Positions 21,330 through 34,957 of a DNA stretch of 64,000 nucleotides are shown here, piece by piece; positions within the stretch are counted from its first letter, which is position 1, and each line of letters opens with the position of its first letter. The position numbers were made by a program, and so were the translations under genes. Location: NCBI RefSeq assembly GCF_036880985.1, contig NZ_JBAJNO010000008.1, positions 806,001 to 870,000 of the forward strand, given 5' to 3'. This DNA comes from Limibacter armeniacum (GTDB taxonomy: Bacteria > Bacteroidota > Bacteroidia > Cytophagales > Flammeovirgaceae). The notes under the pieces were generated by a model. It was not told where the DNA came from, did no database searches, and was given only the letters and a program-made list of their open reading frames with translations.

Positions 21330-23480
21330 ATGACAAATCTTAGACTGAATGCCGTTGAAAAGGCGCTGGCTAGAACTACTAAGTCAGTTGACGTACCTTC
21401 AAACAAGATTTCTGATTACTTTGGTGATGACTGCTTCGATCTGAAAAAATTGAAAGCAGCTGTTACACCTGCTGTATTCGAACAAGTTCAAGCTTCTATC
21501 GAAAAAGGAGCTAAAATCGATCCTGAAACTGCTGACGCTGTAGCTGCAGCTGTTAAGGAGTGGGCGGTTGCTAAAGGTGTTACACACTGTACGCACTGGT
21601 TCCAGCCATTGACTGGTTCATCAGCAGAAAAGCACGATGCATTTTTCGATTCAAGAAAAGGTGTTGAAATATTCAAAGGTTCTACTCTGATACAGCAGGA
21701 GCCTGATGCATCTTCATTCCCTAACGGTGGTATCCGTTCTACTAACCTTGCTAGAGGTTATACTGGTTGGGATCCATCATCTCCATTCTTTATTGTTGAG
21801 TCTACATTGTGTATCCCTACGATCTTCGTATCGTTCACTGGTGATACATTGGATTATAAAATGCCATTGCTGAAAGCTCAGGAAGCAGTTAGCAAAGTGG
21901 CTGTTGAAGTATGTAAATACTTTGACGAAGAAGTAACTGCTGTTAGCGCATCTTTGGGTTGTGAGCAGGAGTACTTCCTAGTTGATAAAGCGTTCTACGC
22001 TGCAAGACCTGACCTTTACATCACAGGTAGAACACTGTTCGGTGCTGCTCCTGCGAAAGGTCAGCAGTTGGATGACCACTACTTTGGTTCAATTGCACCA
22101 AGAGTGTACGCATTCATGAAAGACTTCGAGATTGCGTGTCTGAAATTGGGTATTCCTGTACAGACTCGTCACAACGAGGTAGCGCCAGGTCAGTTTGAGG
22201 TGGCTCCTTTGTTTGAGGAGATCAACGTTGCTGTTGACCACAACCTGCTGATGATGGATGTAATGCAGAAAGTTGCTGACAAGCACGATCTGAAAGTGTT
22301 GTTGCACGAGAAGCCATTCAAAGGTCTGAACGGTTCTGGTAAGCACAACAACTGGTCACTGATCACAGATAACGGCAGAAACCTGTTTGATCCAGAAGGA
22401 AGCCTTTACTTCCTGACATTCTTGGTGAACACAGTTAAAGCTGTACACAAATATGGTGACATCATCAGAGGTTCAATCGCTTCTGCTGGTAACGATCACC
22501 GTCTGGGCGCTAACGAAGCACCTCCAGCAATCATGTCAGTTTTCTTGGGTTCTACTTTGACTGAGTTCTTGGACAAAGTTGAGGCTACAGGTGAGCTGGT
22601 TTACGAAGATGGCGAGGACAAATTCATGCAGTTGGGTATCGAGAAGATTCCTTCACTGAAATTGGATAACACTGACCGTAACCGTACTTCTCCATTTGCC
22701 TTCACAGGTAACAAGTTTGAGCTGAGAGCTGTAGGTTCTACTCAAAACTCAGGTACTCCAATGGCTATCCTGAACTTGGTAGTAGCAGAGCAGTTGACTC
22801 AATTCAAAGCTGAAGTTGATGCCCTTATCGCAGGTGGGAAAGACAAAGAAGAGGCTATCAGAGAAGTATTGATTACTTACATCAAAGAATCTAAGGCTAT
22901 CCGTTTCGAAGGCGATGGTTACTCACAAGAGTGGGTAGAAGAAGCTGAAAGAAGAGGTTTGTCTAACGTGAAAGATACGCCAAGAGCACTGAAATTCCTG
23001 GTAACTGAGCAGGCAATGGAAGTATTTGCTAAGCACGGTGTATTCAGCCACAAAGAAATTGAAGCGAGATACGAGGTTTGGACTGAGATCTACAAGACTA
23101 AACTGGATATCGAAGCTAGAACAATGGAGTCTATCGCTCTGACTAAGATTATCCCTGCAGCTTCTCGTTACATGGGTAAATTGGTTGAGACTGCAGCTGT
23201 TGCAAAGAGCATCGGTATTGAGTCTAGAGGTCTTGTGAAGACTATCGAGGAGGTTGCTTACCAAATCGACGTGTTGAAAGAAGGTGTTGCTTCTATGGCA
23301 ACTGATCTTGATCGCATCGAAGAAATGGGTGACGTTGTTGAGCAGGCTATTGCTTTCGCTGACACTGTAAAAGGTGTACACTTCGAGAAAGTAAGAGGTG
23401 CAGTTGATGCGCTGGAAGCATTGGTTGACGATCAGGAGTGGCCATTGCCAACTTACAGCGAAATGCTGTTCCTGAAGTAA
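21330..23480 (+). CDS. glnN: Type III glutamine synthetase
   Basis: GSIII makes glutamine from glutamate, ammonia and ATP as a dodecamer. The 716-residue length matches GSIII, much longer than GSI. THCTHWFQPLTGSSAEKHDAF is the conserved N-terminal block. SLGCEQEYFLVD (metal-ligand Glu), HNEVAPGQFEVAP, KPFKGLNGSGKHNNWSL and AGNDHRLGANEAPPAIMS are the catalytic blocks, followed by FAFTGNKFELRAVGS. The C-terminal about 150 residues form the helical GSIII-specific extension. It lies downstream of amt and the porin and should consume the ammonium they bring in. Codon bias is strong, as in amt and act. A terminator follows. Confidence 0.97.
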   Translation: MTNLRLNAVEKALARTTKSVDVPSNKISDYFGDDCFDLKKLKAAVTPAVFEQVQASIEKGAKIDPETADAVAAAVKEWAVAKGVTHCTHWFQPLTGSSAEKHDAFFDSRKGVEIFKGSTLIQQEPDASSFPNGGIRSTNLARGYTGWDPSSPFFIVESTLCIPTIFVSFTGDTLDYKMPLLKAQEAVSKVAVEVCKYFDEEVTAVSASLGCEQEYFLVDKAFYAARPDLYITGRTLFGAAPAKGQQLDDHYFGSIAPRVYAFMKDFEIACLKLGIPVQTRHNEVAPGQFEVAPLFEEINVAVDHNLLMMDVMQKVADKHDLKVLLHEKPFKGLNGSGKHNNWSLITDNGRNLFDPEGSLYFLTFLVNTVKAVHKYGDIIRGSIASAGNDHRLGANEAPPAIMSVFLGSTLTEFLDKVEATGELVYEDGEDKFMQLGIEKIPSLKLDNTDRNRTSPFAFTGNKFELRAVGSTQNSGTPMAILNLVVAEQLTQFKAEVDALIAGGKDKEEAIREVLITYIKESKAIRFEGDGYSQEWVEEAERRGLSNVKDTPRALKFLVTEQAMEVFAKHGVFSHKEIEARYEVWTEIYKTKLDIEARTMESIALTKIIPAASRYMGKLVETAAVAKSIGIESRGLVKTIEEVAYQIDVLKEGVASMATDLDRIEEMGDVVEQAIAFADTVKGVHFEKVRGAVDALEALVDDQEWPLPTYSEMLFLK

Positions 23481-23559: not shown

Positions 23560-26397
23560 TTACCGGATAATGAATTTCTGAGTGCTTTGTTGTGTATCGC
23601 TATGATAGTTTAAGAGATATACGCCACTCGGTAAATTGAGTTCTTGTTCTCCTGATGGAAGAATAATGATTTTTTCCCCCATCAAACTTCTAATTTCAAC
23701 CTGACCTGAAGCACTCTGTGGAGTAGTGATCTGGATATTCCCGTTGGAAGGGTTCGGGAATACCTGTAGGATGGTGGAATTGATACTATTGGCTTCAAAA
23801 CCGCTGACCTCAATACTTCTGACATACCTTTGAAGCAATGTACCTGTACCATCAGCACCAGACCATGTTTCTATCATCAGCTCAAACGTGGTCGAAGGTG
23901 GGGTGAATGGTAGTAAATCACCATTGTCTTTACCTGTAAGGCTATAAGGGGCTTCATTTTCAACCTGAACAGTATTGCCATTGATTTTAAAGACGACACT
24001 TCCTACAGCCACTTTTGGGTTTACGACAACCGTCTGGTTGGGAGTGGAACTGAAGTCGATAGGGAAGCGGAAACCGACAAGATCATTGTCTTCCAGCAAG
24101 CCGATGTTTTGTTGTTGATCGGTGTCAAAAAGGAAGGTTTCTATATCGTATTCTTGCGAGTATTCAGCCGTAAAGCCTAGAAGAGAAAAACCTGTCAGAA
24201 TTCTTTTGCCATTTTCTGCCTTATAAGTGGCAAGGTAGTAAGGATTACTGTTTTGGTTGAAATATGTATCAGGTCTGTCAGAAAAGAAGTCATATGGAGC
24301 ATTTTCAAAGAGTCCTTGACTGAAACTTTTTGAAAATGTCAGAAGAAGATCACTGCCATTTTGTAATTCGGCACGTATGATGTATTCCCCTTCAGCATTG
24401 GTATTAGGATCGAAATACTGACTCAGGTTTACTGTTTGGGCTGCTTCAATTGGCTGTCCAACCTGTATGTGCTCTCCAAATAGGGATCTGATCATCAGAT
24501 AGATTTCAGATTGAGCTTCGGGATACTCAGGTGAATTGATTATATCAAAGTCCCATAAGATATCAATTGGTTCATTAATCAGGTAACCACCATATGCCAT
24601 ATAATGACCATCAACGAAAGGAAAAGGCAGTATATTCCCTTCTCCGTCTTTATGTTGGACAGGACCGTAACCTAATGGGCTGTGGAGTTCGACGGATACA
24701 TTCGTGATCGGGTCTTCACCTTTGTCCAGTTCAAAATAGTAGCTTCCTGAGCTGAACTGGCTAAGGTCCAATGTGAAGCCAAAACCTGTTGGGACCTCTG
24801 TCAGCCTTTCACCCGTGGTTGCATCTACCAAATATAGTCTAGGGTGAGATGTCTCATTGAATACAAGAAATGTCAATGGGGTTGAAACGGTTTCTCCTAC
24901 TATTTCACCTGTTCCATTCGCATCGGTATAGGCAGTTGCTTTTATATCATAGATACCAGGTTCTAAAGCCTCACCGATTGGCTGTCCGTTGTTGTCGCCA
25001 AACAGGAAATAAGGAGTTGTATTCTGAATGCTTTTGGCTACAGAAACCCCATTGCTGAAGACATTTTTCCTTAGTACCAGTTCCGTTTCAATACTTCCGA
25101 CACTTCCTGATGGAATTACTTCAATGTTGAAAAGATTTTCAGTGAAGTCTGACAGTGTAAAAGTGGAACCACTTGGGGCAGTTACCGGTATGGTAACGGT
25201 ACTGTTGTCAGGAGCGTAGGCTACCCTTGCAGATAGGGCAACTGGGGTAGGAGGAATATTCAAAATTGTGCTGAAAGTAATGGTTTTTTCAGCAACAAGG
25301 TTGCCTTGAAGGTTACTCTTGCTATATGCCTTTGCCGTGAGGGTGTAACTGCCGGGAGGTAGCGTTCTGACATTGAATTTGCCGTCATAGTCGCCAAAGA
25401 ATGTATAAGGGATTGTGTTTTCTGTTCGGCTTGAGCCGTTGAAGATCAGTTGCATACTATCTACACCGTCAGGCATGTTGGTTTTGAGGTAGAATTTTGT
25501 CTCTGCCAGATCCGGAAAGTTGGCAAGGTTGAATATATCACCATCAGATACCGAATAGAGATTATGCCTGACATCTTCTATAAGTGAGAAATTGATCTTG
25601 TCAGAAGAAGGTGGAGGTGTGGATGAATTACTTACATTGAAGCTTAGCTGCTTTTTCCCAATTGCATTTCCCGATGCGTTGTCAGCACTATAGACAGTAA
25701 CTTCCAATTGGTAGCTTCCTACATTGAGAGACTGTGCGTTCAATTTGCCATTGACATCTCCGAAAAGGGCATAGGGGACGACATTTTCGGTTTTTATGGA
25801 GTTGTTTAACTTGAATTGAACACTCTGGCTTCCTTGCAGGTTATTGGCAATTATATTGAAAGAGTTGCTGGGGAACTGAGATAGGTCAAGTGTGTAGTTG
25901 TCTTCTAACTGAGCAATGATGGTGTTGCTGGGAACATGGATTAAACTTAATATTACTTCGTCCCCATTTGGTGGAGGTGTATCATCTTTGACGACCGAAA
26001 ACTGAACAGTAGTCTCTCCCAAAAGTGTTCCTGAGCCATTGATACCGCTGAAAGCCTTTGCCGTAATCATATGGGAGCCAAGTGAAAGTGATTCACCATT
26101 GTAATTGCCATTACTGTCTCCAAATAATGCATATGGAGAGATGTTTTCAAAAGGACTTGCATTCCCATCATAGATCAGTTGGACACTGCCAGGGTTGAGG
26201 CTTTCAGCTACTGCCCGAATACTAAATGTATTGCCAGGAAAATCGCCTTGGTTAAGGGTCGCCCCATTTGTCAGTGCGCCAGTCTCGGTATCAGTATCAG
26301 ACCTGACAAGTTGAAGTGTGATATCAGATGACTGTGACTGTGCCCAAAAGGGTAAGGAGAATAGCCATAAGACCATTAGCGTAGTAATCAGTTTCAT
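23560..26397 (-). CDS. Modular secreted protein with T9SS sorting domain (paralogue 1)
   Basis: The 945-residue protein has a signal peptide (cleavage near AQSQ, about residue 21) and a C-terminal type A T9SS sorting domain of about 70 residues (VFPNPSNGNIQI ... GVYLLNYH ... KFIIR), so it should cross the outer membrane and be surface-attached or released. Between lie about seven tandem modules of 110-130 residues, roughly 24-140, 145-262, 268-385, 386-518, 518-630, 630-745 and 745-870. Modules 1-4 and 7 keep the core ENxxPYALFGDxNG ... LxxGxYxLTAxAYS ... NGxGxxLGxxTxxFxV. Modules 5 and 6 are degenerate. I do not know the function of this module; it looks Ig-like (all-beta). No catalytic domain is visible, so binding or adhesion is the likeliest role. 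The next two minus-strand genes are its paralogues. Confidence 0.85.
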   Translation of the reverse strand: MKLITTLMVLWLFSLPFWAQSQSSDITLQLVRSDTDTETGALTNGATLNQGDFPGNTFSIRAVAESLNPGSVQLIYDGNASPFENISPYALFGDSNGNYNGESLSLGSHMITAKAFSGINGSGTLLGETTVQFSVVKDDTPPPNGDEVILSLIHVPSNTIIAQLEDNYTLDLSQFPSNSFNIIANNLQGSQSVQFKLNNSIKTENVVPYALFGDVNGKLNAQSLNVGSYQLEVTVYSADNASGNAIGKKQLSFNVSNSSTPPPSSDKINFSLIEDVRHNLYSVSDGDIFNLANFPDLAETKFYLKTNMPDGVDSMQLIFNGSSRTENTIPYTFFGDYDGKFNVRTLPPGSYTLTAKAYSKSNLQGNLVAEKTITFSTILNIPPTPVALSARVAYAPDNSTVTIPVTAPSGSTFTLSDFTENLFNIEVIPSGSVGSIETELVLRKNVFSNGVSVAKSIQNTTPYFLFGDNNGQPIGEALEPGIYDIKATAYTDANGTGEIVGETVSTPLTFLVFNETSHPRLYLVDATTGERLTEVPTGFGFTLDLSQFSSGSYYFELDKGEDPITNVSVELHSPLGYGPVQHKDGEGNILPFPFVDGHYMAYGGYLINEPIDILWDFDIINSPEYPEAQSEIYLMIRSLFGEHIQVGQPIEAAQTVNLSQYFDPNTNAEGEYIIRAELQNGSDLLLTFSKSFSQGLFENAPYDFFSDRPDTYFNQNSNPYYLATYKAENGKRILTGFSLLGFTAEYSQEYDIETFLFDTDQQQNIGLLEDNDLVGFRFPIDFSSTPNQTVVVNPKVAVGSVVFKINGNTVQVENEAPYSLTGKDNGDLLPFTPPSTTFELMIETWSGADGTGTLLQRYVRSIEVSGFEANSINSTILQVFPNPSNGNIQITTPQSASGQVEIRSLMGEKIIILPSGEQELNLPSGVYLLNYHSDTQQSTQKFIIR

Positions 26398-26537
26398 TGT
26401 GTCAATGTTTTGATTTGAACTGTTTGGTTAAACCTGTGGAAAAAGCATATTAGAGAGCCGTCAGGTTCAAAAAGTACCCACTTCGTGTGCTGTGGATTAG
26501 TATATCAATGATGATATGAATTGTTTATGCTGTGTTA

Positions 26538-26580
26538 AAAAAGTAGGGCTTATTCGAGATGAAGTAAGCCCTACTTTATT
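26538..26580 (-). terminator. Terminator after T9SS paralogue 2
   Basis: AAGTAGGGCTTA and TAAGCCCTACTT pair perfectly; the minus-strand product runs into TTTTAAC. It separates paralogue 2 from paralogue 1, so each has its own transcript. Confidence 0.85.
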
Positions 26581-26591
26581 TATAATCAAGA

Positions 26592-29453
26592 TCAGTGGAT
26601 AATTAGCTTTTGGGTGGTGTGCTCGTTGCCATTACTGTAATTAAGTAGATAAATCCCCCTTGGTAGGTTTATCTGATGTTGTCCTGAAGGGAGGTTTTGA
26701 ATGTTTTGTCCTAATACATTGACAATCTCAATGTTTCCTTTTCCATTTGGAGAGACAATATTGACTTTTCCCGATGATGGGTTAGGCCATGTTTGCAGGA
26801 TTGTTTCCTGACTATTGTCGAGTCCTACTGCGAAAGCAGTTGTAAAACCGGGTGTCGCTATACTTCGAACATACCGTTCTATCAGTTCCCCTGTAGCATT
26901 TGGTCCTGTCCAAGTTTCAACGATCAACTCAAAATAAAATCCATCTATCAGTGGAGGTGTAAGTGGTGTAATTATGCCATTCTCATCTTTAGGAGTAAGG
27001 CTGTATGGAGGATTGTTGCTAGTGTGGTACTGCTCTCCATTTACCACAAAATTGACACTTCCTATTTCGTATTTTGGTTCTACAACAATGGTTTGTAAAG
27101 GGTAGAGGTTATAGTCCATTTCATAGAAATAAGGAAGTGGTAATGCTCCAATTACTTCCTGTAGTTCTGTATTGAATGCGAGTGTTTTGACATTCAACGC
27201 TCTTGGTTCATCTGAATTCAGGTCATTGAAAATGTCCAATACTTTAAAACCGGAGAGTACCCTTTTGTCATTTTCAATCTTGTAGGTGGCAATACCCATC
27301 AAGATATTGTACCTGTTGAAAATACTTAATGAGTATGGAGGTTCTTCAAAAAGGTATATACTAGCATCTACGGTAGGTAAAAATACTTGAAGGATTTCAT
27401 TATTAGGTACTGAAACAAAATTCAGGATAGATGCATCTTCAAATTGGCTATTGGGATCAATGTATTGTGAATAGGAAATAGTGTCACCTGTAACCAGTTC
27501 AAAGCTTTTAAGGAATTCAGGAGTGGTAAAATTAGAATGTACCATAAAAAGCGCTTGTACAGGACTTTCAGGGTAATCGGGTGCATTGATGACTGTAAAT
27601 TCCCATTTCTGATCAAAAAACTCATCTATTCTGTAGCCTCCAAATACCTCATATCCTCCATTTACCAGTGGGTAAGGTAAAATTCTACCATCTTCATCTG
27701 TGAATGTTAGTGGTCCAAACTCAATGAATTGATTGATGATACTAGGGTTTGTAGCGATGATCGGGTCAGATCCTTTATCATAATCGAAATAGAAATTCTC
27801 TGTATTGAATTGACTTAAGTCCAATATATAGCCATTGATTTGAGGGATTTCAATCAGCCTTTCTCCTGAAATGGCATCCGCCAGATATAGTTTTGGAGCT
27901 GTAATGTTCTCAAATACATAAAAGAATAGCCCTGGTGATGAGATGCTCTCTATCACTTCTCCTGTACCATTAGCCCCCGAGTAGGCAATCACTTCCAGTT
28001 CATATCTTCCGGGTTGTAAAGTTTCTCCTATTGGTTGTCCGTTTTGGTCGCCGAACAAGTAATAGGGTGCAGTACTCTGTATGCTGCTAAATACTTCAGG
28101 ATTATCATCATCTGAATTTTGACTGTAACTGAGTTTTGTTTCGATACTACCTATCGTTCCTGAAGGAATAACTTCTATGTTGAATGCATTTTGCGCATAG
28201 TCTGAAAGTTTCAGGTAAACATCACTGGGTGCATAATCAGGGATTGCAGCAGTGCTATTGTTTGGCGTATAGACTACTCTTGTGCTTAGTCCTACAGGAG
28301 TCGGAGGTGTGTCAAGTACAGTTGAGAAAGTAATGGTTCTTTCTGCAAGCAATGTTCCTTGTAGGTTGTCTTGACTATAAGCTTTGGCAGTTAAAGTATA
28401 GTTGCCTGGAGGGAAGGTTTTACCGTTGAAGATATTGCCTGCATCTCCAAAAAATGAGTAAGGCGCTACATTTTCTAACCGGCTGGAACCATTGATGGTT
28501 AGCTGCATACTTTCTGTGCCTTCAGGGGCTGTGGCTGTCAGGTAGATTAAAGATGCCTCTTTCTGTGGGAAAAGGTCACTGCCAAGGTCTATGGAGGAGC
28601 TATTTTCAAGTTCAAAAGCATTTTTACTGACTATATCTGTAAGAAGTAATTTGATGCTTGAAGTAGTGGGAGGTGGTGGTGTATCCTGACCTATTACCGT
28701 AAGAGTAACTTGTAGTTGCTCCAAAACGTTGCCGGAGGCATTGTCGTTGCTATAAGCTGTCGCACTTAGGTTGTAGGAGCCAATAGCGATAGGTTTACCA
28801 ATAAGGGCACCATTTACATCGCCAAATAAGGCATAGGGAGCGATGTTTTCCGTGCGTTGCGTGGTGTTGAACTGAAACTTTACACTTTCAGGGTTTTTAC
28901 TGCTGATAGCTATTACACTGAATGCATTGGAGTTAAACTCAGAAAGGTTTAGAATATAATTACCTTGAAGTTCTGTGACTACCGTATTGGTAGAGGTATG
29001 GATCAGTTGGAGAGTCAACTCGTCACCAGATGGCGGAGGAGGGGTGTCATCTCCACTTACTGTAAATTGTACTGTAGCTTGTCCAAGTAGTGAGCCTGAA
29101 CCATTGCTTCCGCTATAGGCCACAGCTGTTACAGTATGGTTGCCGACTGTTAGAGGGCTGCCTTCGTAATTGCCATTGCTGTCTCCAAACAAGGCATAAG
29201 GCGCTACATTTTCTTTTGACTTGATTGCGCCGTCATAGGATAGAATAACACTTCCAGGATTGAGGCTTTCTGCTATTGCTTGAACGCTAAAAGTACTTCC
29301 AGGGAATTGATTCTGATTAATCGTTATTCCATTGGCTAATGTGCCAACTTCAGTGTCGCTATCAGTGCGTATTAGCTTAAACGAAATGGGAGATTGCGCC
29401 CATGTCGTAGGGATTAGCAATACTGCTAATAAGAAAGTAAAAATGAGTTTCAT
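26592..29453 (-). CDS. Modular secreted protein with T9SS sorting domain (paralogue 2)
   Basis: The 953-residue paralogue shares the layout of its neighbour: signal peptide (cleavage near TTWAQ, about residue 20), about seven modules, and a T9SS sorting domain (TWPNPSSGKVNI ... RGIYLLNYSNGNEHTTQKLIIH). Module 1 is nearly identical in pattern to that of paralogue 1 (SLNPGSVILSYDG, PYALFGDSNGNYEG). Proline-rich hinges such as DDTPPPPSGDE separate modules 1-3. Modules 5 and 6 are again divergent, with a LPYPLVNGGYEVFGGYRIDE segment in place of the usual core. Function is unknown; surface adhesin or glycan-binding protein is inferred from architecture only. It is flanked by its own terminator. 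Confidence 0.85.
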   Translation of the reverse strand: MKLIFTFLLAVLLIPTTWAQSPISFKLIRTDSDTEVGTLANGITINQNQFPGSTFSVQAIAESLNPGSVILSYDGAIKSKENVAPYALFGDSNGNYEGSPLTVGNHTVTAVAYSGSNGSGSLLGQATVQFTVSGDDTPPPPSGDELTLQLIHTSTNTVVTELQGNYILNLSEFNSNAFSVIAISSKNPESVKFQFNTTQRTENIAPYALFGDVNGALIGKPIAIGSYNLSATAYSNDNASGNVLEQLQVTLTVIGQDTPPPPTTSSIKLLLTDIVSKNAFELENSSSIDLGSDLFPQKEASLIYLTATAPEGTESMQLTINGSSRLENVAPYSFFGDAGNIFNGKTFPPGNYTLTAKAYSQDNLQGTLLAERTITFSTVLDTPPTPVGLSTRVVYTPNNSTAAIPDYAPSDVYLKLSDYAQNAFNIEVIPSGTIGSIETKLSYSQNSDDDNPEVFSSIQSTAPYYLFGDQNGQPIGETLQPGRYELEVIAYSGANGTGEVIESISSPGLFFYVFENITAPKLYLADAISGERLIEIPQINGYILDLSQFNTENFYFDYDKGSDPIIATNPSIINQFIEFGPLTFTDEDGRILPYPLVNGGYEVFGGYRIDEFFDQKWEFTVINAPDYPESPVQALFMVHSNFTTPEFLKSFELVTGDTISYSQYIDPNSQFEDASILNFVSVPNNEILQVFLPTVDASIYLFEEPPYSLSIFNRYNILMGIATYKIENDKRVLSGFKVLDIFNDLNSDEPRALNVKTLAFNTELQEVIGALPLPYFYEMDYNLYPLQTIVVEPKYEIGSVNFVVNGEQYHTSNNPPYSLTPKDENGIITPLTPPLIDGFYFELIVETWTGPNATGELIERYVRSIATPGFTTAFAVGLDNSQETILQTWPNPSSGKVNIVSPNGKGNIEIVNVLGQNIQNLPSGQHQINLPRGIYLLNYSNGNEHTTQKLIIH

Positions 29454-29809
29454 GGGTAAACATATTGAGTAGTAAATGAAATGGAAGCTACTTAAATAGG
29501 AAGGAATGTCTGTAGATAGGTGTTGAGTTGGTTAAGGTAGCGGTGATATATAGCGTTGCATTTGTTTTCATAACAGTATAAGTATTTACGAATGTTCCTT
29601 AAGTAGTTGTGAACAAGGCCGTAATGGCAGTTTTGGGCTGTTAATAAATATTGATATTTAAAACATTAAGAGAGCTTGTTTGAAGTTGTTGTGTAAAAGA
29701 AAGACTGTCCCCTTGATTGAAGCAGTCTTGATAGGCGTGTTAATAAGTTGTAGTCAGGTTTTGAGGTGGTATAAGGTCAGAATTCATTTTGAAATCAGGG
29801 TGTATTCAA
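29454..29809. other. Intergenic region between T9SS paralogues 2 and 3
   Basis: This should hold the promoter of paralogue 2. I found no CAAAnnTA/CAAA pair at proper spacing on the plus strand, so no promoter is called. A short plus-strand ORF starting at 29680 runs across the terminator of paralogue 3 and is judged spurious. Confidence 0.35.
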
Positions 29810-29845
29810 GAAAAAAACGGCTATCTCGAAGTCGAAATAGCCGTA
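29810..29845 (-). terminator. Terminator after T9SS paralogue 3
   Basis: ACGGCTAT and ATAGCCGT pair perfectly around TCTCGAAGTCGA, and the minus-strand RNA then has a run of seven Us. Confidence 0.87.
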
Positions 29846-29888
29846 CAAACACACACATAGATTTAAATATACTCCAGATGAAAGCATG

Positions 29889-32360
29889 TTACCTTACAAT
29901 GAGCTTCTGAACTCGTTGCTTGTTGCCATCATTGAAGTTGAGTAAGTAAATGCCACTAGGTAGGTCAATGGCATAATGACCTGCCGGAAGCGTTTTGATT
30001 CTTTGTCCCAGTACACTTAATATTTCAAGGTTGCCATGACCTTTAGGTGTTGAGATCCTGACTTTTCCACTTGAAGGGTTTGGCCATGCCTGAATCTTGT
30101 CTGTATCAAGGTCTGCCGTTGTGCCAATGCTAAGAGACTGGCTGGCGCCAAGTGCATCAATACTTCTGACATATCTCTCGATAAGTTTTCCTGTTGCATT
30201 AGGTCCTTCATAGGTCTCAACCATTAGTTCCATGTAGGTGTTTTTGGGGAAATAAGGTAGAATATTGCCATACTCATCAGTACCAGTCAGTACATATGGA
30301 GCCGCATTGCGAGTATATACTGTCTGCCCGTTTATCAGCATTTTAATACTTCCCACTTTATAAGTAGGTGTTGGAATGATCGTTTGAGCAGGGTAACTGT
30401 AATAGTCAATAGGGTAGTAGAACCCAGTAGGAGGCGCTTCCAGCAGTCCTATGTTTTGCCTTAATGAAGTATTGTAAAGCATTGTACCAACATTCAATGA
30501 CTGGTAATACTTTCCTTCTATTTCCAATTCAGAAAAGCCACTGATGACATATTTATCTTCTACCAACTGAAAAGCAGCCAATCCTATTGGAATGGTTCCA
30601 TCAATTCTTCCTGAGTAAAAATCGAAAGGAGCCTCTTCAAAGATGTTTGGGGTAAGGTTTGTGTAAAAGCCCTGCATCAGGTCTGTTGGCTGTGAAGGCT
30701 CAGCCCTTAAATTGTACTCATCCTCAAGGTTAGTGTTAGGGTCTGTGTATTGCGTCATATTGAGCGTGTCCCCTTCTACTATTTGGATTCCTTTCAGGAT
30801 AAATGGCGTGAATTGTGAGCGTACCATCAGGAAGTTCTCACTTTCCAAAACCGGTAACTCAGGGGCGTTTATGATATTGAAATCCCATTCCTGAGTGTAG
30901 ATTTCGCCAGAGGTATAGCTTCCCTGCACTTTATAATTACCATCCTTGATAGGGAATGGTAGTATTCGTCCATCCTGATCATAGTAAGTGATAGCGCTAA
31001 TGACGTACTCATACGGTGTGGCAGTAAAGCCCGCTGCTGCATTGCTGGCAGGCTCTTCTATTACCTGCTTGAAGTAATAATGCTCGGTTTCATACTGACT
31101 CAGGTCAATGGTGAATCCCTTTGTTTCAGGAATCTCTACCACAGGGTTGTCTGTTTTTACATCAAACAGGAAAAGCCTTGTGAAGCCTTTTGTACGTTTC
31201 ACTTCAAACTCCCCTCCAGTTGTTGCCAATACTTCTCCACCAGCATCTTGTTCTGCATATGCCGTTATCTTAATGGAGTAGAACCCTAACGGGAGCGCTT
31301 TCCCGATTAGTTTGCCATCCACAGCTCCATACAAGGAAAAAGGAATGTTGTTTTGTATAACAGTCAGTTCTATGGGGTCCCCATCTGCTGTGGCTTTATA
31401 AGCCAGTTGAATCAGGACACTCTTGCTCGGTTCGTCTGCTTTGACTTCAACATTGAAAGCGTTTTCAGCAAAGTCATCCAACAAAATGGTTTTGACCTCC
31501 TGATTGTTTTCCATCAGTTTGGTTACAACCATATTGTCAGGTGTATAGACGAGGTTCCCTGTAACTGTCACGGGAGCAGGAGAGGTGTCGATAATATGAA
31601 TGGTAATGGTATGTTCAGCCAGTTGATTTCCTGCTAGCTTGTCTTTGGTGAAGGCTTTTCCTGAAAGAACATAAGTGCCGGGAGCCAAAGTATTGGTCAG
31701 GAAATTACCCTTGCTGTCACCCCAAAACGCGTAAGGTTCATCATTTTCTGGTCGGGCTTTCCCGTCAATAGCCAGTTCCATACTTTCAGTTCCGTTTGGA
31801 GCAATAGCCTCAAGATATAGCGGTGTATCAGCTTTTTCTGAAAAGTCATTCAGGTCAATTGTGATACCATCAGTAAGTTCATAGACTTGTTTGGTATTGT
31901 CGTCAACAAGGTTGAATGTGATTTCCAAAGGAGGTTGTTCCTTGATGACGTACTCGACGGTAAAGGTGATGGTTACCTCACCGAGTATTTCGCCTTTGCC
32001 ATCGGCTTCAGAAAATATGATTACCGTAAGCGTGTGTTCTCCTAGGGTGAGTTCTTTCCCGTTGTAGTTGCCTTTGCCATCTCCAAAAAGGGAATAAGGA
32101 ACCAGGTCTTCTGTTGAGTAGGTTTTTCCATCATAAATAAATCGGACACTTCCAACTTCAGCACCTTCTACTTCAGTTTTGACGCTGAAGTCATCTCCAG
32201 GGAATTCATTTTTGTCGACAATGTCTCCATCTTTCAGCTCGCCAGCTTCTGTATCAGTATCCGTTTTTATGAGTTTGAATGTTACCTTAACTTCTGGTGG
32301 TTGAGCGAAGATTGGTGGTAGCGTGAATAGCACGAGTAAGATAGTAGTAATGAGCTTCAT
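29889..32360 (-). CDS. Modular secreted protein with T9SS sorting domain (paralogue 3, one module fewer)
   Basis: This 823-residue paralogue is about 130 residues shorter than paralogue 2. Its module 1 (VTFKLIKTDTDTEAGEL ... PYSLFGDGKGNYNGKEL) is followed directly by the equivalent of module 3 (LTDGITIDLNDFSEKADTPLYL, PYAFWGDSKGNF), so module 2 is absent. Modules 4 to 7 and the sorting domain (AWPNPSSGKVRI ... GIYLLNFNDGNKQRVQKLIVR) follow. The signal peptide ends near IFAQ (about residue 19). Its modules are more acidic and Lys-rich than those of the other two copies. Function unknown. It probably represents an old duplicate that lost, or never gained, one unit. Confidence 0.85.
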   Translation of the reverse strand: MKLITTILLVLFTLPPIFAQPPEVKVTFKLIKTDTDTEAGELKDGDIVDKNEFPGDDFSVKTEVEGAEVGSVRFIYDGKTYSTEDLVPYSLFGDGKGNYNGKELTLGEHTLTVIIFSEADGKGEILGEVTITFTVEYVIKEQPPLEITFNLVDDNTKQVYELTDGITIDLNDFSEKADTPLYLEAIAPNGTESMELAIDGKARPENDEPYAFWGDSKGNFLTNTLAPGTYVLSGKAFTKDKLAGNQLAEHTITIHIIDTSPAPVTVTGNLVYTPDNMVVTKLMENNQEVKTILLDDFAENAFNVEVKADEPSKSVLIQLAYKATADGDPIELTVIQNNIPFSLYGAVDGKLIGKALPLGFYSIKITAYAEQDAGGEVLATTGGEFEVKRTKGFTRLFLFDVKTDNPVVEIPETKGFTIDLSQYETEHYYFKQVIEEPASNAAAGFTATPYEYVISAITYYDQDGRILPFPIKDGNYKVQGSYTSGEIYTQEWDFNIINAPELPVLESENFLMVRSQFTPFILKGIQIVEGDTLNMTQYTDPNTNLEDEYNLRAEPSQPTDLMQGFYTNLTPNIFEEAPFDFYSGRIDGTIPIGLAAFQLVEDKYVISGFSELEIEGKYYQSLNVGTMLYNTSLRQNIGLLEAPPTGFYYPIDYYSYPAQTIIPTPTYKVGSIKMLINGQTVYTRNAAPYVLTGTDEYGNILPYFPKNTYMELMVETYEGPNATGKLIERYVRSIDALGASQSLSIGTTADLDTDKIQAWPNPSSGKVRISTPKGHGNLEILSVLGQRIKTLPAGHYAIDLPSGIYLLNFNDGNKQRVQKLIVR

Positions 32361-32829: not shown

Positions 32830-32900
32830 GGCACCGTGGCCGAGAGGCTAGGCAGGGCTCTGCAAAAGCTCGTACAGCGGTTCGAATCCGCTCGGTGCCT
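32830..32900 (+). tRNA. tRNA-Cys (GCA), copy 1
   Basis: 71 nt. The acceptor stem GGCACCG pairs with CGGTGCC, followed by discriminator U, which is the Cys identity base. The D-arm has GCC/GGC. The anticodon stem is GGGCT/AGCTC with one G-U pair, and the loop CTGCAAA gives anticodon GCA. The T-arm is AGCGG-TTCGAAT-CCGCT. The 3' CCA is not encoded. Confidence 0.95.
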
Positions 32901-32997
32901 CTAGTTGCTTTCAAATAGGGGCCCATTAAGTTGGGCTTTTGTTTTCTGAAGTAAAGAACTTTTACTTACTTAAAGCATACAATACCAGAATTGTCAA

Positions 32998-33068
32998 GGC
33001 ACCGTGGCCGAGAGGCTAGGCAGGGCTCTGCAAAAGCTCGTACAGCGGTTCGAATCCGCTCGGTGCCT
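32998..33068 (+). tRNA. tRNA-Cys (GCA), copy 2
   Basis: All 71 bases are identical to copy 1, 97 bases downstream. It is preceded by ATTGTCAA, as is copy 3. Confidence 0.95.
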
Positions 33069-33116
33069 CTAACATTCATCACTCATAGTAGTGGTAGTGT
33101 TTTCTTTTATTGTCAA

Positions 33117-33187
33117 GGCACCGTGGCCGAGAGGCTAGGCAGGGCTCTGCAAAAGCTCGTACAGCGGTTCGAATCCGCTCGGTGCCT
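33117..33187 (+). tRNA. tRNA-Cys (GCA), copy 3
   Basis: Identical to the other two, 48 bases after copy 2, and sharing the upstream ATTGTCAA with copy 2, so copies 2 and 3 probably come from a recent tandem duplication. A terminator follows. Confidence 0.95.
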
Positions 33188-33197
33188 CCACGATCTC

Positions 33198-33709: not shown

Positions 33710-34957
33710 ATGAGTATCGGCAGAAGTGTTACTAGGTTTCGTTTTGCTCTGATGATGGTTTTCGGACTGTTGTTCTCTGCGGGTGTTTACGCTCAAGGTG
33801 CAGCAGGGGGGATTCCAACCGATGAGGCTTCAATCTCAGCGGGTCAGGCATTGTTTTCAGGAAACTGTGCTTCGTGTCACGCAGTAGACAAAAAAGTAGT
33901 AGGCCCAGCGCTGAAAAATGTTTACGACAGACGCGATGTCGCATGGTTGACTAAGTTTATTAAGCATCCGCAAAAGGTAATCGACAGCGGAGATGAGTAT
34001 GCGGTGGCATTGTACGACCAGTTCAAGCCAACGATCATGCCAAACCAGGAGGTATCTGATCAGGAGATCCTGCAGATCCTTGCTTACGTGAAGCACACTA
34101 CGGACAATCCTCCGGTAGTGGATGAAACAGAAGTACCTGGTGGTGGTGAAGGCAGTAATGCACAAGCTGCAGGCGTAGACTCAAATCTGTTGCTGGGAAT
34201 CATTGCAGTGCTGATGGTATTGCTGGTAGTTGTACTGGTAGTGCTGATTGTACTTGCACAAGTACTTTCTAAGTATCTGAAGCAGCAACAAGGTCTTTCA
34301 GAAGAAGATCAGGAGTACGTTGCTCAGAAGTTTGACCTGATGGCTGTGCTGAAAAGCCAGGCATTTGTTGGTTTTGCTTCATTCATCTTTGTAGTAATCG
34401 TTGCAAAAACGGTGATTGACGGTCTGTTCGCTATTGGTGTACAACAAGGTTATGCGCCAGATCAGCCAATTAATTTCTCTCACAAACTGCACGCAGGTTA
34501 CTACGAGATTGACTGTAAGTACTGCCACACAGGTGTAGAAAAGTCGAAAAACGCCAACATTCCGTCGGCAAACATCTGTATGAACTGTCACAACAGTATC
34601 AGAACGACTTCACCTGAAATCCAGAAGATCTACAAGGCAATCGAAAACAACGAGCCGATCCAGTGGGTGAGAATTCACAACCTTCCAGACTTGGCTTACT
34701 TCAACCACTCACAACACGTGAAAGTAGGTGGTATTGAGTGTGAGACTTGCCACGGTGACATCAAAGAGATGGAGATTGTACAGCAACACTCTATCCTGAC
34801 AATGGGATGGTGTATTGACTGTCACAGAAAGACTGACGTAGCGGCGAAAGGAAATGCATACTACGAGAAGCTTGTGGAAATCCACGAGTCGAAAACCAAA
34901 GCTCCTATGAAAGTAGAAGACATTGGTGGTCTGGAGTGTGCTAAATGTCACTATTAA
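33710..34957 (+). CDS. actA: Alternative complex III subunit A (hexahaem cytochrome c)
   Basis: ActA is the periplasmic multihaem subunit of alternative complex III, which oxidises menaquinol and passes electrons onward. There is a signal peptide (ends near YAQG, residue 29), then a monohaem domain with CASCH (C53-H57), then membrane helices (about 160-185 and 215-238), then a pentahaem domain with CKYCH (about 269), CMNCH, CETCH, CIDCH and CAKCH (410-414). Six CxxCH motifs match the fused mono- plus pentahaem form known in Bacteroidetes. It is the first gene of the act operon, behind a consensus promoter. An intercistronic GGGAGC/GCTCCC dyad separates it from actB. Confidence 0.94.
   Translation: MSIGRSVTRFRFALMMVFGLLFSAGVYAQGAAGGIPTDEASISAGQALFSGNCASCHAVDKKVVGPALKNVYDRRDVAWLTKFIKHPQKVIDSGDEYAVALYDQFKPTIMPNQEVSDQEILQILAYVKHTTDNPPVVDETEVPGGGEGSNAQAAGVDSNLLLGIIAVLMVLLVVVLVVLIVLAQVLSKYLKQQQGLSEEDQEYVAQKFDLMAVLKSQAFVGFASFIFVVIVAKTVIDGLFAIGVQQGYAPDQPINFSHKLHAGYYEIDCKYCHTGVEKSKNANIPSANICMNCHNSIRTTSPEIQKIYKAIENNEPIQWVRIHNLPDLAYFNHSQHVKVGGIECETCHGDIKEMEIVQQHSILTMGWCIDCHRKTDVAAKGNAYYEKLVEIHESKTKAPMKVEDIGGLECAKCHY

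Follow-up and report, generated by a model that had tools for sequence, protein, structure and literature searches.

A 64,000-nucleotide stretch of the Limibacter armeniacum genome (assembly GCF_036880985.1, contig NZ_JBAJNO010000008.1, positions 806,001 to 870,000), referred to here as the window, contains three consecutive minus-strand genes for long, internally repetitive proteins and raises the question of what such proteins are and what they might do. Paralog 1 (P0001, positions 23560 to 26397 of the window) encodes 945 amino acids, paralog 2 (P0002, 26592 to 29453) 953, and paralog 3 (P0003, 29889 to 32360) 823, each from an ATG start; a first-pass annotation made from the sequence alone had given the coordinates, strand, and lengths exactly. 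P0001 and P0002 consist of modules M1 to M7 followed by a type IX secretion system (T9SS) type A sorting domain, and P0003 of M1 and M3 to M7 followed by the same kind of domain. Such a tandem array of T9SS cargo is an ordinary object, and the libraries searched barely capture the module from which the proteins are built. With a little better than even confidence, these proteins and a fourth paralog from another contig (P0004) are read here as exported, noncatalytic rods of immunoglobulin (Ig)-like modules that serve as surface stalks or adhesins, possibly in contact with glycans.

The sorting domain scores above the cut-off in all three window proteins, both as PF18962 (34.5 to 38.2 bits, cut-off 27) and as TIGR04183 (36.3 to 38.5 bits, cut-off 23), in agreement with the first-pass annotation, and P0004 reaches 27.7 against the Pfam cut-off of 27. 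The N termini of the three proteins are hydrophobic, end in AQ, and look like signal peptides by eye. The genome encodes SprA, the T9SS component searched for (2372.9 bits, cut-off 200), and contains 96 sorting-domain matches at an E value of ≤0.001, 87 of them above the Pfam cut-off, with some of these matches being contig-end repeats. Given the 87 matches and SprA, three more cargo proteins are unremarkable in themselves. Equal-score sorting-domain matches recur on contigs C2, C4, and C6 of this genome, spaced 320,718 (two pairs), 271,331, and 183,040 bases apart. This suggests from sequence that the three contigs have redundant ends and are perhaps circular replicons.

Motif comparison and BLASTP reveal the same layout in the proteins, with tandem modules of about 105 to 130 amino acids running from M1 to M7 and then the sorting domain. 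A PY-type core is present in M1 to M4 and M7 and is absent or partial in M5 and M6. An arrangement of five clear and two degenerate modules, earlier ascribed to each protein, holds for P0001 and P0002 and not for P0003, which lacks M2 and has four clear and two degenerate modules. BLASTP matches between different module positions reach down to 2.5e-24, which together with the profile search places the repetition beyond chance. In that search, a profile built from the window's 14 clear modules hit 19 places in the 8.0-Mb genome, namely, the 14 themselves and 5 in P0004, so that all module places of the genome lie in the four paralogs. P0004 is encoded on another contig (L088:9785-12613) as a protein of 942 amino acids, and its five profile matches stand in the same order. 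The idea of a local family fits the three tandem genes and was incomplete, as this full-length fourth paralog lies on the other contig behind a gene for a glycoside hydrolase family 9 (GH9) protein. P0004 starts 208 bp past that gene and on the same strand; the product is a 1,486-amino-acid protein with CelD_N, GH9, Big_2, Big_7, GH115_C, and sorting domains. The same 19.5 kb also holds an MGH1/GH63-like enzyme, a GH28 protein, and what is presumably an AraC-like regulator. This GH9 neighborhood appears to be the best functional hint available, at one locus only.

The four paralogs share 36 to 48% pairwise identity. In a tree of seven outside modules and the 19 family modules other than M5 and M6, clades extend across the paralogs for M1 (support, 97/97), M3 (100/99), M4 (97/98), and M7 (100/98). 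M7 stands apart from M1 to M4, and its neighbor is a module of G003, another genome of the family (98/95). The modules group by position and not by gene, indicating that the array was built before the genes were duplicated. The second module of P0004 groups weakly with M2 (81/61), and loss of M2 is the likelier, though not firm, history of P0003 according to this tree. The proportions of synonymous and nonsynonymous differences (pS and pN) are 0.72 to 0.81 and 0.34 to 0.45, respectively, in all six paralog pairs, and synonymous divergence (dS) could be obtained for one pair only (2.35), with the other five past saturation. The paralogs are old, conserved duplicates under constraint. The position-wise clades and the synonymous sites near or past saturation show no visible trace of recombination or module exchange between paralogs, and they lend no support to the "room to recombine" that had been proposed for the locus. 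When copy number was compared, no full-length match was found in 57 other genomes among the best 15 or fewer candidates per genome; 18 of the 57 gave matches, 9 in modules and 9 in the sorting domain only. No member of the same genus appeared in this comparison. A whole-protein search of named genomes found no relative.

Sequence profile and structural model place the clear module among Ig-like domains, with the Pfam family Big_7 (PF17957) as a relative. As whole proteins, P0001 scores 25.1 bits against the Big_7 cut-off of 24.1 (best stretch, M7), and P0002 and P0003 remain below it at 19.9 and 21.8 bits. When 80 module copies were scanned singly at an E value of ≤0.01, 4 matched Big_7 and no other family matched more than 3. 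When the profile built from the 80 copies was aligned by hhalign to 10 Big_7 domains from this genome, the probability was 92.9 over 70 columns. The earlier description of the module as unassigned was therefore nearly right, holding for P0002 and P0003 and failing for P0001 by 1.0 bit. The module is related to a named domain with a characterized member, domain B1 of CelAly, and its membership in that family is marginal. A 2026 report describes binding of alginate gel by two Big_7 domains in CelAly, a T9SS enzyme, with B1 being the stronger and binding by Lys40, Arg49, and Arg75 on a flat positive face (PMC13235733). Glycan contact is therefore plausible for a domain of this fold. NCBIfam recognized the sorting domain alone in the three window proteins. 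No catalytic family scored above a Pfam or NCBIfam cut-off in these proteins, as the first-pass annotation had it, nor above a Pfam cut-off in P0004. Weak leads were dropped, namely, sub-cut-off Pfam matches (Y_Y_Y, TcfC, DUF5013, CarboxypepD_reg, Glyco_hydro_75, and others), a single PDB sequence hit that the 14-row profile gave, to a microbial collagenase domain (E value, 0.53), matches to plastocyanins (0.24 to 0.3), and the two sorting-domain chains that were all that whole P0002 retrieved from the PDB (0.23 and 0.26). A phage origin was likewise rejected, with no PHROGs match for any of the three proteins at an E value of ≤0.01. A search of literature text for the module motif strings found no papers, which says little.

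The M1-M2 pair of P0001 (positions 25627 to 26322, minus strand) was modeled with AlphaFold2 from 13 sequences as two Ig-like beta-sandwich domains, with a mean predicted local distance difference test (pLDDT) score of 90.9 and a predicted template modeling (pTM) score of 0.53. Linker residues 117 to 120 have low confidence, and with this pTM value the angle between M1 and M2 is not fixed by the model. Foldseek placed an Fn3-like pair of CbhA first (E value, 3.8e-08), followed by chains of the surface glycan-binding protein SGBP-B (6e57; 2.1e-5), with CelAly B1 in row 20 (1.1e-3). Ranked by structural Z score, the order was CbhA (9.6), CelAly B1 (8.6), a beta-glucuronidase (8.5), and a single CbhA module (8.4). 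The highest-scoring single-domain PDB rows, 9kvu for CelAly B1 (Z, 8.6; root mean square deviation [rmsd], 2.6; 84 aligned residues) and 3pe9 for CbhA (Z, 8.4; rmsd, 3.2; 85 aligned), are within 1 Z of a BT4663 domain (4a2m; Z, 7.8; rmsd, 2.9; 95 aligned), and below them come numerous ordinary Ig proteins at Z 6.6 to 7. The model thus resembles accessory domains from secreted polysaccharidases, those of CbhA and CelAly, among other Ig-like rows that score similarly. Compared with PDB sequences, the module profile matched All3314 (7b5h) at an E value of 4.2e-4 and 3pdd at 0.001.

The module was found in 6 of 18 genomes of the family and, at an E value of ≤1e-6, in 10 of 296 genomes of the phylum, the source genome being included in both. 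A search of named genomes based on M1 and M2 found at least 30 loci, a biased floor because it rests on two peptide patterns. Twenty carry Bacteroidota names, including Aquiflexum, Cognataquiflexum, Larkinella, Robertkochia, Hymenobacter, Maribacter, and Arenibacter, and 10 are labeled otherwise. One of these 10, L097:6046-7974, labeled as a Thalassovita metagenome-assembled genome, is identical in DNA to L010:529-2457, a gene of the family genome G011, and carries a T9SS sorting domain; the contig is probably misbinned and was excluded from the counts for other phyla. The remaining nine titles cover Alpha- and Gammaproteobacteria, Planctomycetota, Thermoanaerobaculia, Halomicronema, and Acidimicrobiales. 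Several are metagenome bins; the entry for Thermohalobaculum xanthum names a strain.

Partner domains were scanned in 25 hand-chosen module proteins (24 distinct, as L010 equals L097), and the resulting lists are minimum lists because some open reading frames are cut at the end of the fetched stretch. Partners above the cut-off include esterase-like (L010, L012, and L118), subtilase (L052), metallophosphoesterase (L108), DUF5060 (L094, L109, and L064), GSDH (L106), beta-helix (L089), fasciclin (L011), PA14 (L015), and NHL (L113) domains, malectin with kelch (L098, L100, and L101), malectin (L108) or kelch (L080) domains, and other Ig families. Four proteins (L104, L111, L014, and L051) gave no match at an E value of ≤0.001. 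The sorting domain is above the cut-off in 12 of the 24 relatives and below it in L103, and in 10 of the 12 the domain that immediately precedes the sorting domain is the module (exceptions, L101 and L015). None of the five scanned proteins with a non-Bacteroidota label, out of nine such loci, has a sorting domain (L094, L104, L108, L109, and L111), indicating that the module is not tied to the T9SS.

The 80 rows of the module profile comprise 14 window and 66 nonwindow modules. Among the latter, 2 come from P0004, 32 from a scan for a YALFGD pattern, which inflates that motif, and the other 32 from a pattern-free search of genomes. Conserved positions in the 66 nonwindow rows are S46 (62 rows), E59 (60), P63 (65), G68 (59), D69 (63), G72 (56), Y74 (54), G82 (65), and G98 (62). 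The 32 pattern-free rows retain S46 (29), E59 (30), P63 (31), G68 (27), D69 (30), G72 (25), D or N at position 73 (27), G82 (31), and G98 (30), with N71 in 14 only. Exceptions occur in the window, where M7 has K, K, and T at position 69, M4 of P0003 has A at the same position, and M4 has Q at position 59 in all three proteins. That E59, D69, and D/N73 form a ligand or calcium site is a guess from this pattern. Relatives are mostly acidic, with a median isoelectric point (pI) of 4.34 and 9 of 93 above 7.

The degenerate M5-M6 segment lies at positions 24121 to 24843 in P0001, 27168 to 27896 in P0002, and 30468 to 31181 in P0003, all on the minus strand. A profile of this segment from the four paralogs matched only those paralogs and hence the source genome alone, both among 291 genomes sampled from the order and among 395 sampled from the phylum; the source genome is included in both, the samples overlap, and the result is among the best-scored candidates per genome. 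Aligned by hhalign to the module profile, M5 gave a probability of 78.9 and M6 45.0; by this comparison, M5 is probably a decayed module and M6 possibly one.

The three proteins are T9SS cargo of an ordinary kind, and the Ig-like module they are made of turns up in many bacteria. As exported stalks or adhesins, they would reach the periplasm by a putative Sec signal peptide, and from the known biology of the T9SS, the C-terminal sorting domain would be recognized and the protein passed to the cell surface or medium. There, six or seven beta-sandwich domains would stand out as an acidic stalk, which would most probably contact an extracellular polymer or surface as an adhesin or glycan-contacting protein. 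The polymer-linked role is proposed because of the partner domains in relatives and the GH9 neighbor of P0004, and an adhesin or glycan binder appears to be the leading class. Because the modules are acidic and poor in tryptophan, a stalk or adhesin at the surface is favored here, and glycan binding is a competitor to be taken seriously. Several observations weigh against the stalk or adhesin as proposed. The M5-M7 model is poor (pLDDT 46.3 from three sequences), so that M5-M6 may hide an activity. Pilus adhesins, T-cell receptors, and cadherin likewise appear in the Foldseek and Z lists, and as Z scores of 7 to 9 are middling for Ig folds, fold rank says little on function. All 20 window modules are net negative, with a pI of 4.05 to 5.0, which on charge and pI makes the positive-face mechanism of CelAly B1 (Lys40, Arg49, and Arg75) look unlikely. 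Zero to one Trp per module disfavors a Trp-platform binder. The window neighbors, which we take to be an ammonium transporter, a glutamine synthetase, and an ActA-like respiratory operon, include no glycan genes.

It is quite conceivable, if short of probable, that the modules bind a polysaccharide, keeping cells or enzymes attached to it, as CelAly B1 or surface glycan-binding proteins do. The GH9 neighbor of P0004, the alginate-binding Big_7 domain among the top single-domain fold matches, and the SGBP-B chains in the Foldseek list point in this direction; the acidity and scarce Trp of the modules do not, and three of the four genes have no recognizable glycan genes beside them. Relatives also pair the module with protease, phosphatase, and esterase domains, which a neutral spacer fits better. 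Rods of purely structural function, in which the modules give length and stiffness and any specificity lies in the divergent M5-M6, are a comparably tenable alternative, which may well be correct without being the expected outcome. This is consistent with the module being last before the sorting domain in most relatives that have one, with the diversity of partner domains, and with M5-M6 being family specific (absent from 290 other order-sample and 394 other phylum-sample genomes by the overlapping, best-candidate search described above). Against a pure spacer speak a polar motif conserved in relatives (E59 and D69 each in 30 of 32 pattern-free rows) and the resemblance of M5 itself to a decayed module. 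A catalytic domain of a new family in M5-M6 would agree with the poor M5-M7 model and with the conservation of the segment among the four paralogs, and is nevertheless very improbable: no catalytic family was recognized in the four proteins by the searches above, the module profile aligns with M5 and, less strongly, with M6, and 20 of the 27 invariant columns are Gly, Pro, Leu, Tyr, or Phe. A bolder combination is improbable, though less so, namely, that the module represents a widespread but undescribed Ig-like family in which the conserved E59...PY...GD69xxG(D/N)73Y loop provides a site for a ligand or a metal, Ca2+ perhaps, that stiffens the rod, and that the proteins form a lineage-specific surface fiber with M5-M6 as a new receptor-binding domain that has no relative in the genomes searched.

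Each of the three genes is followed by a hairpin and a T-rich stretch, which bears out the terminators placed at or beside the genes by the first-pass annotation. The terminator-like hairpin 3' of P0001 (23527 to 23552) lies between convergent genes, the opposing one presumably encoding a type III glutamine synthetase. The hairpin 3' of P0002 (26540 to 26577) is listed by the scan on the plus strand only, and the minus-strand sequence runs into T's too; that 3' of P0003 (29817 to 29844) is on the minus strand, with a T run. The distance from the stop codon to the hairpin and its T-rich tail is 8, 15, and 45 bases for P0001, P0002, and P0003, respectively, and the surrounding stretches of 60 to 89 bases fold with −19.6, −20.7, and −26.2 kcal/mol. 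The evidence for termination is the placement of the hairpins, because terminator-like sites across the region are not enriched over shuffled sequence (10 versus 7.8 ± 2.9). The GC content of the four paralog genes (0.405 to 0.429) is near that of the window (0.411). Directly upstream of P0003, at positions 32830 to 33190 on the plus strand, are three tandem, near-alike tRNA-Cys (gca) genes.

The genes flanking the set presumably encode a glutamine synthetase-like protein (21330 to 23480) and an ActA-like protein (33710 to 34957). The former has a near full-length match in 14 of 18 genomes of the family and the latter a strong match in 17 of 18, the source genome included in both. In near-complete genomes, the two lie at 4.17 and 1.05 Mb (G014), 2.17 and 3.90 Mb (G012), and 0.51 and 3.41 Mb (G002). 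With the flanks this far apart, no empty site can be defined for synteny, and although both genes are common in the family, their arrangement around the three genes is probably specific to this lineage.

In Bacteroidota, and on contigs labeled as several other phyla, secreted enzymes and lectin-like proteins carry the module, yet Pfam barely recognizes it. A domain model would annotate it widely and, together with a binding assay, would distinguish a spacer from a binder.

Among known systems, All3314 of what we take to be Anabaena gives the best PDB sequence-profile match (residues 1296 to 1399; 7B5H, chain AA), and its matched domain is single and near the end of a 1,476-amino-acid protein. 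The grappling hook protein GhpA of Aureispira (9FLW and 9FLP) is likewise a long surface protein of Bacteroidota (Z, 7.1 and 6.9; rmsd, 8.4 and 18.7), but it exceeds 4,000 residues, and likeness at a Z of about 7 may reflect the common Ig arrangement only. The Fn3-like modules of Clostridium thermocellum CbhA (3PDD and 3PE9) come first in both Foldseek and Z. The Z of 9.6 for the pair extends over 171 residues at an rmsd of 11.5, indicating two domains at a different angle, and by PDB name these modules belong to a GH9 chain, whereas the window proteins have no recognized catalytic domain in the chain. Compared with Big_7, the module is longer (about 111 profile positions versus 70) and has two features for which the alignment shows no Big_7 counterpart, namely, an N-terminal extension and a GDxxGxY loop, and the window modules are acidic where CelAly B1 binds through Lys and Arg (PMC13235733). 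What the window proteins share with CelAly B1 (PDB 9KVU) is an Ig-like beta-sandwich, by profile alignment over 70 columns and by fold match, and, according to the same source, CelAly is, like them, T9SS cargo (PMC13235733).

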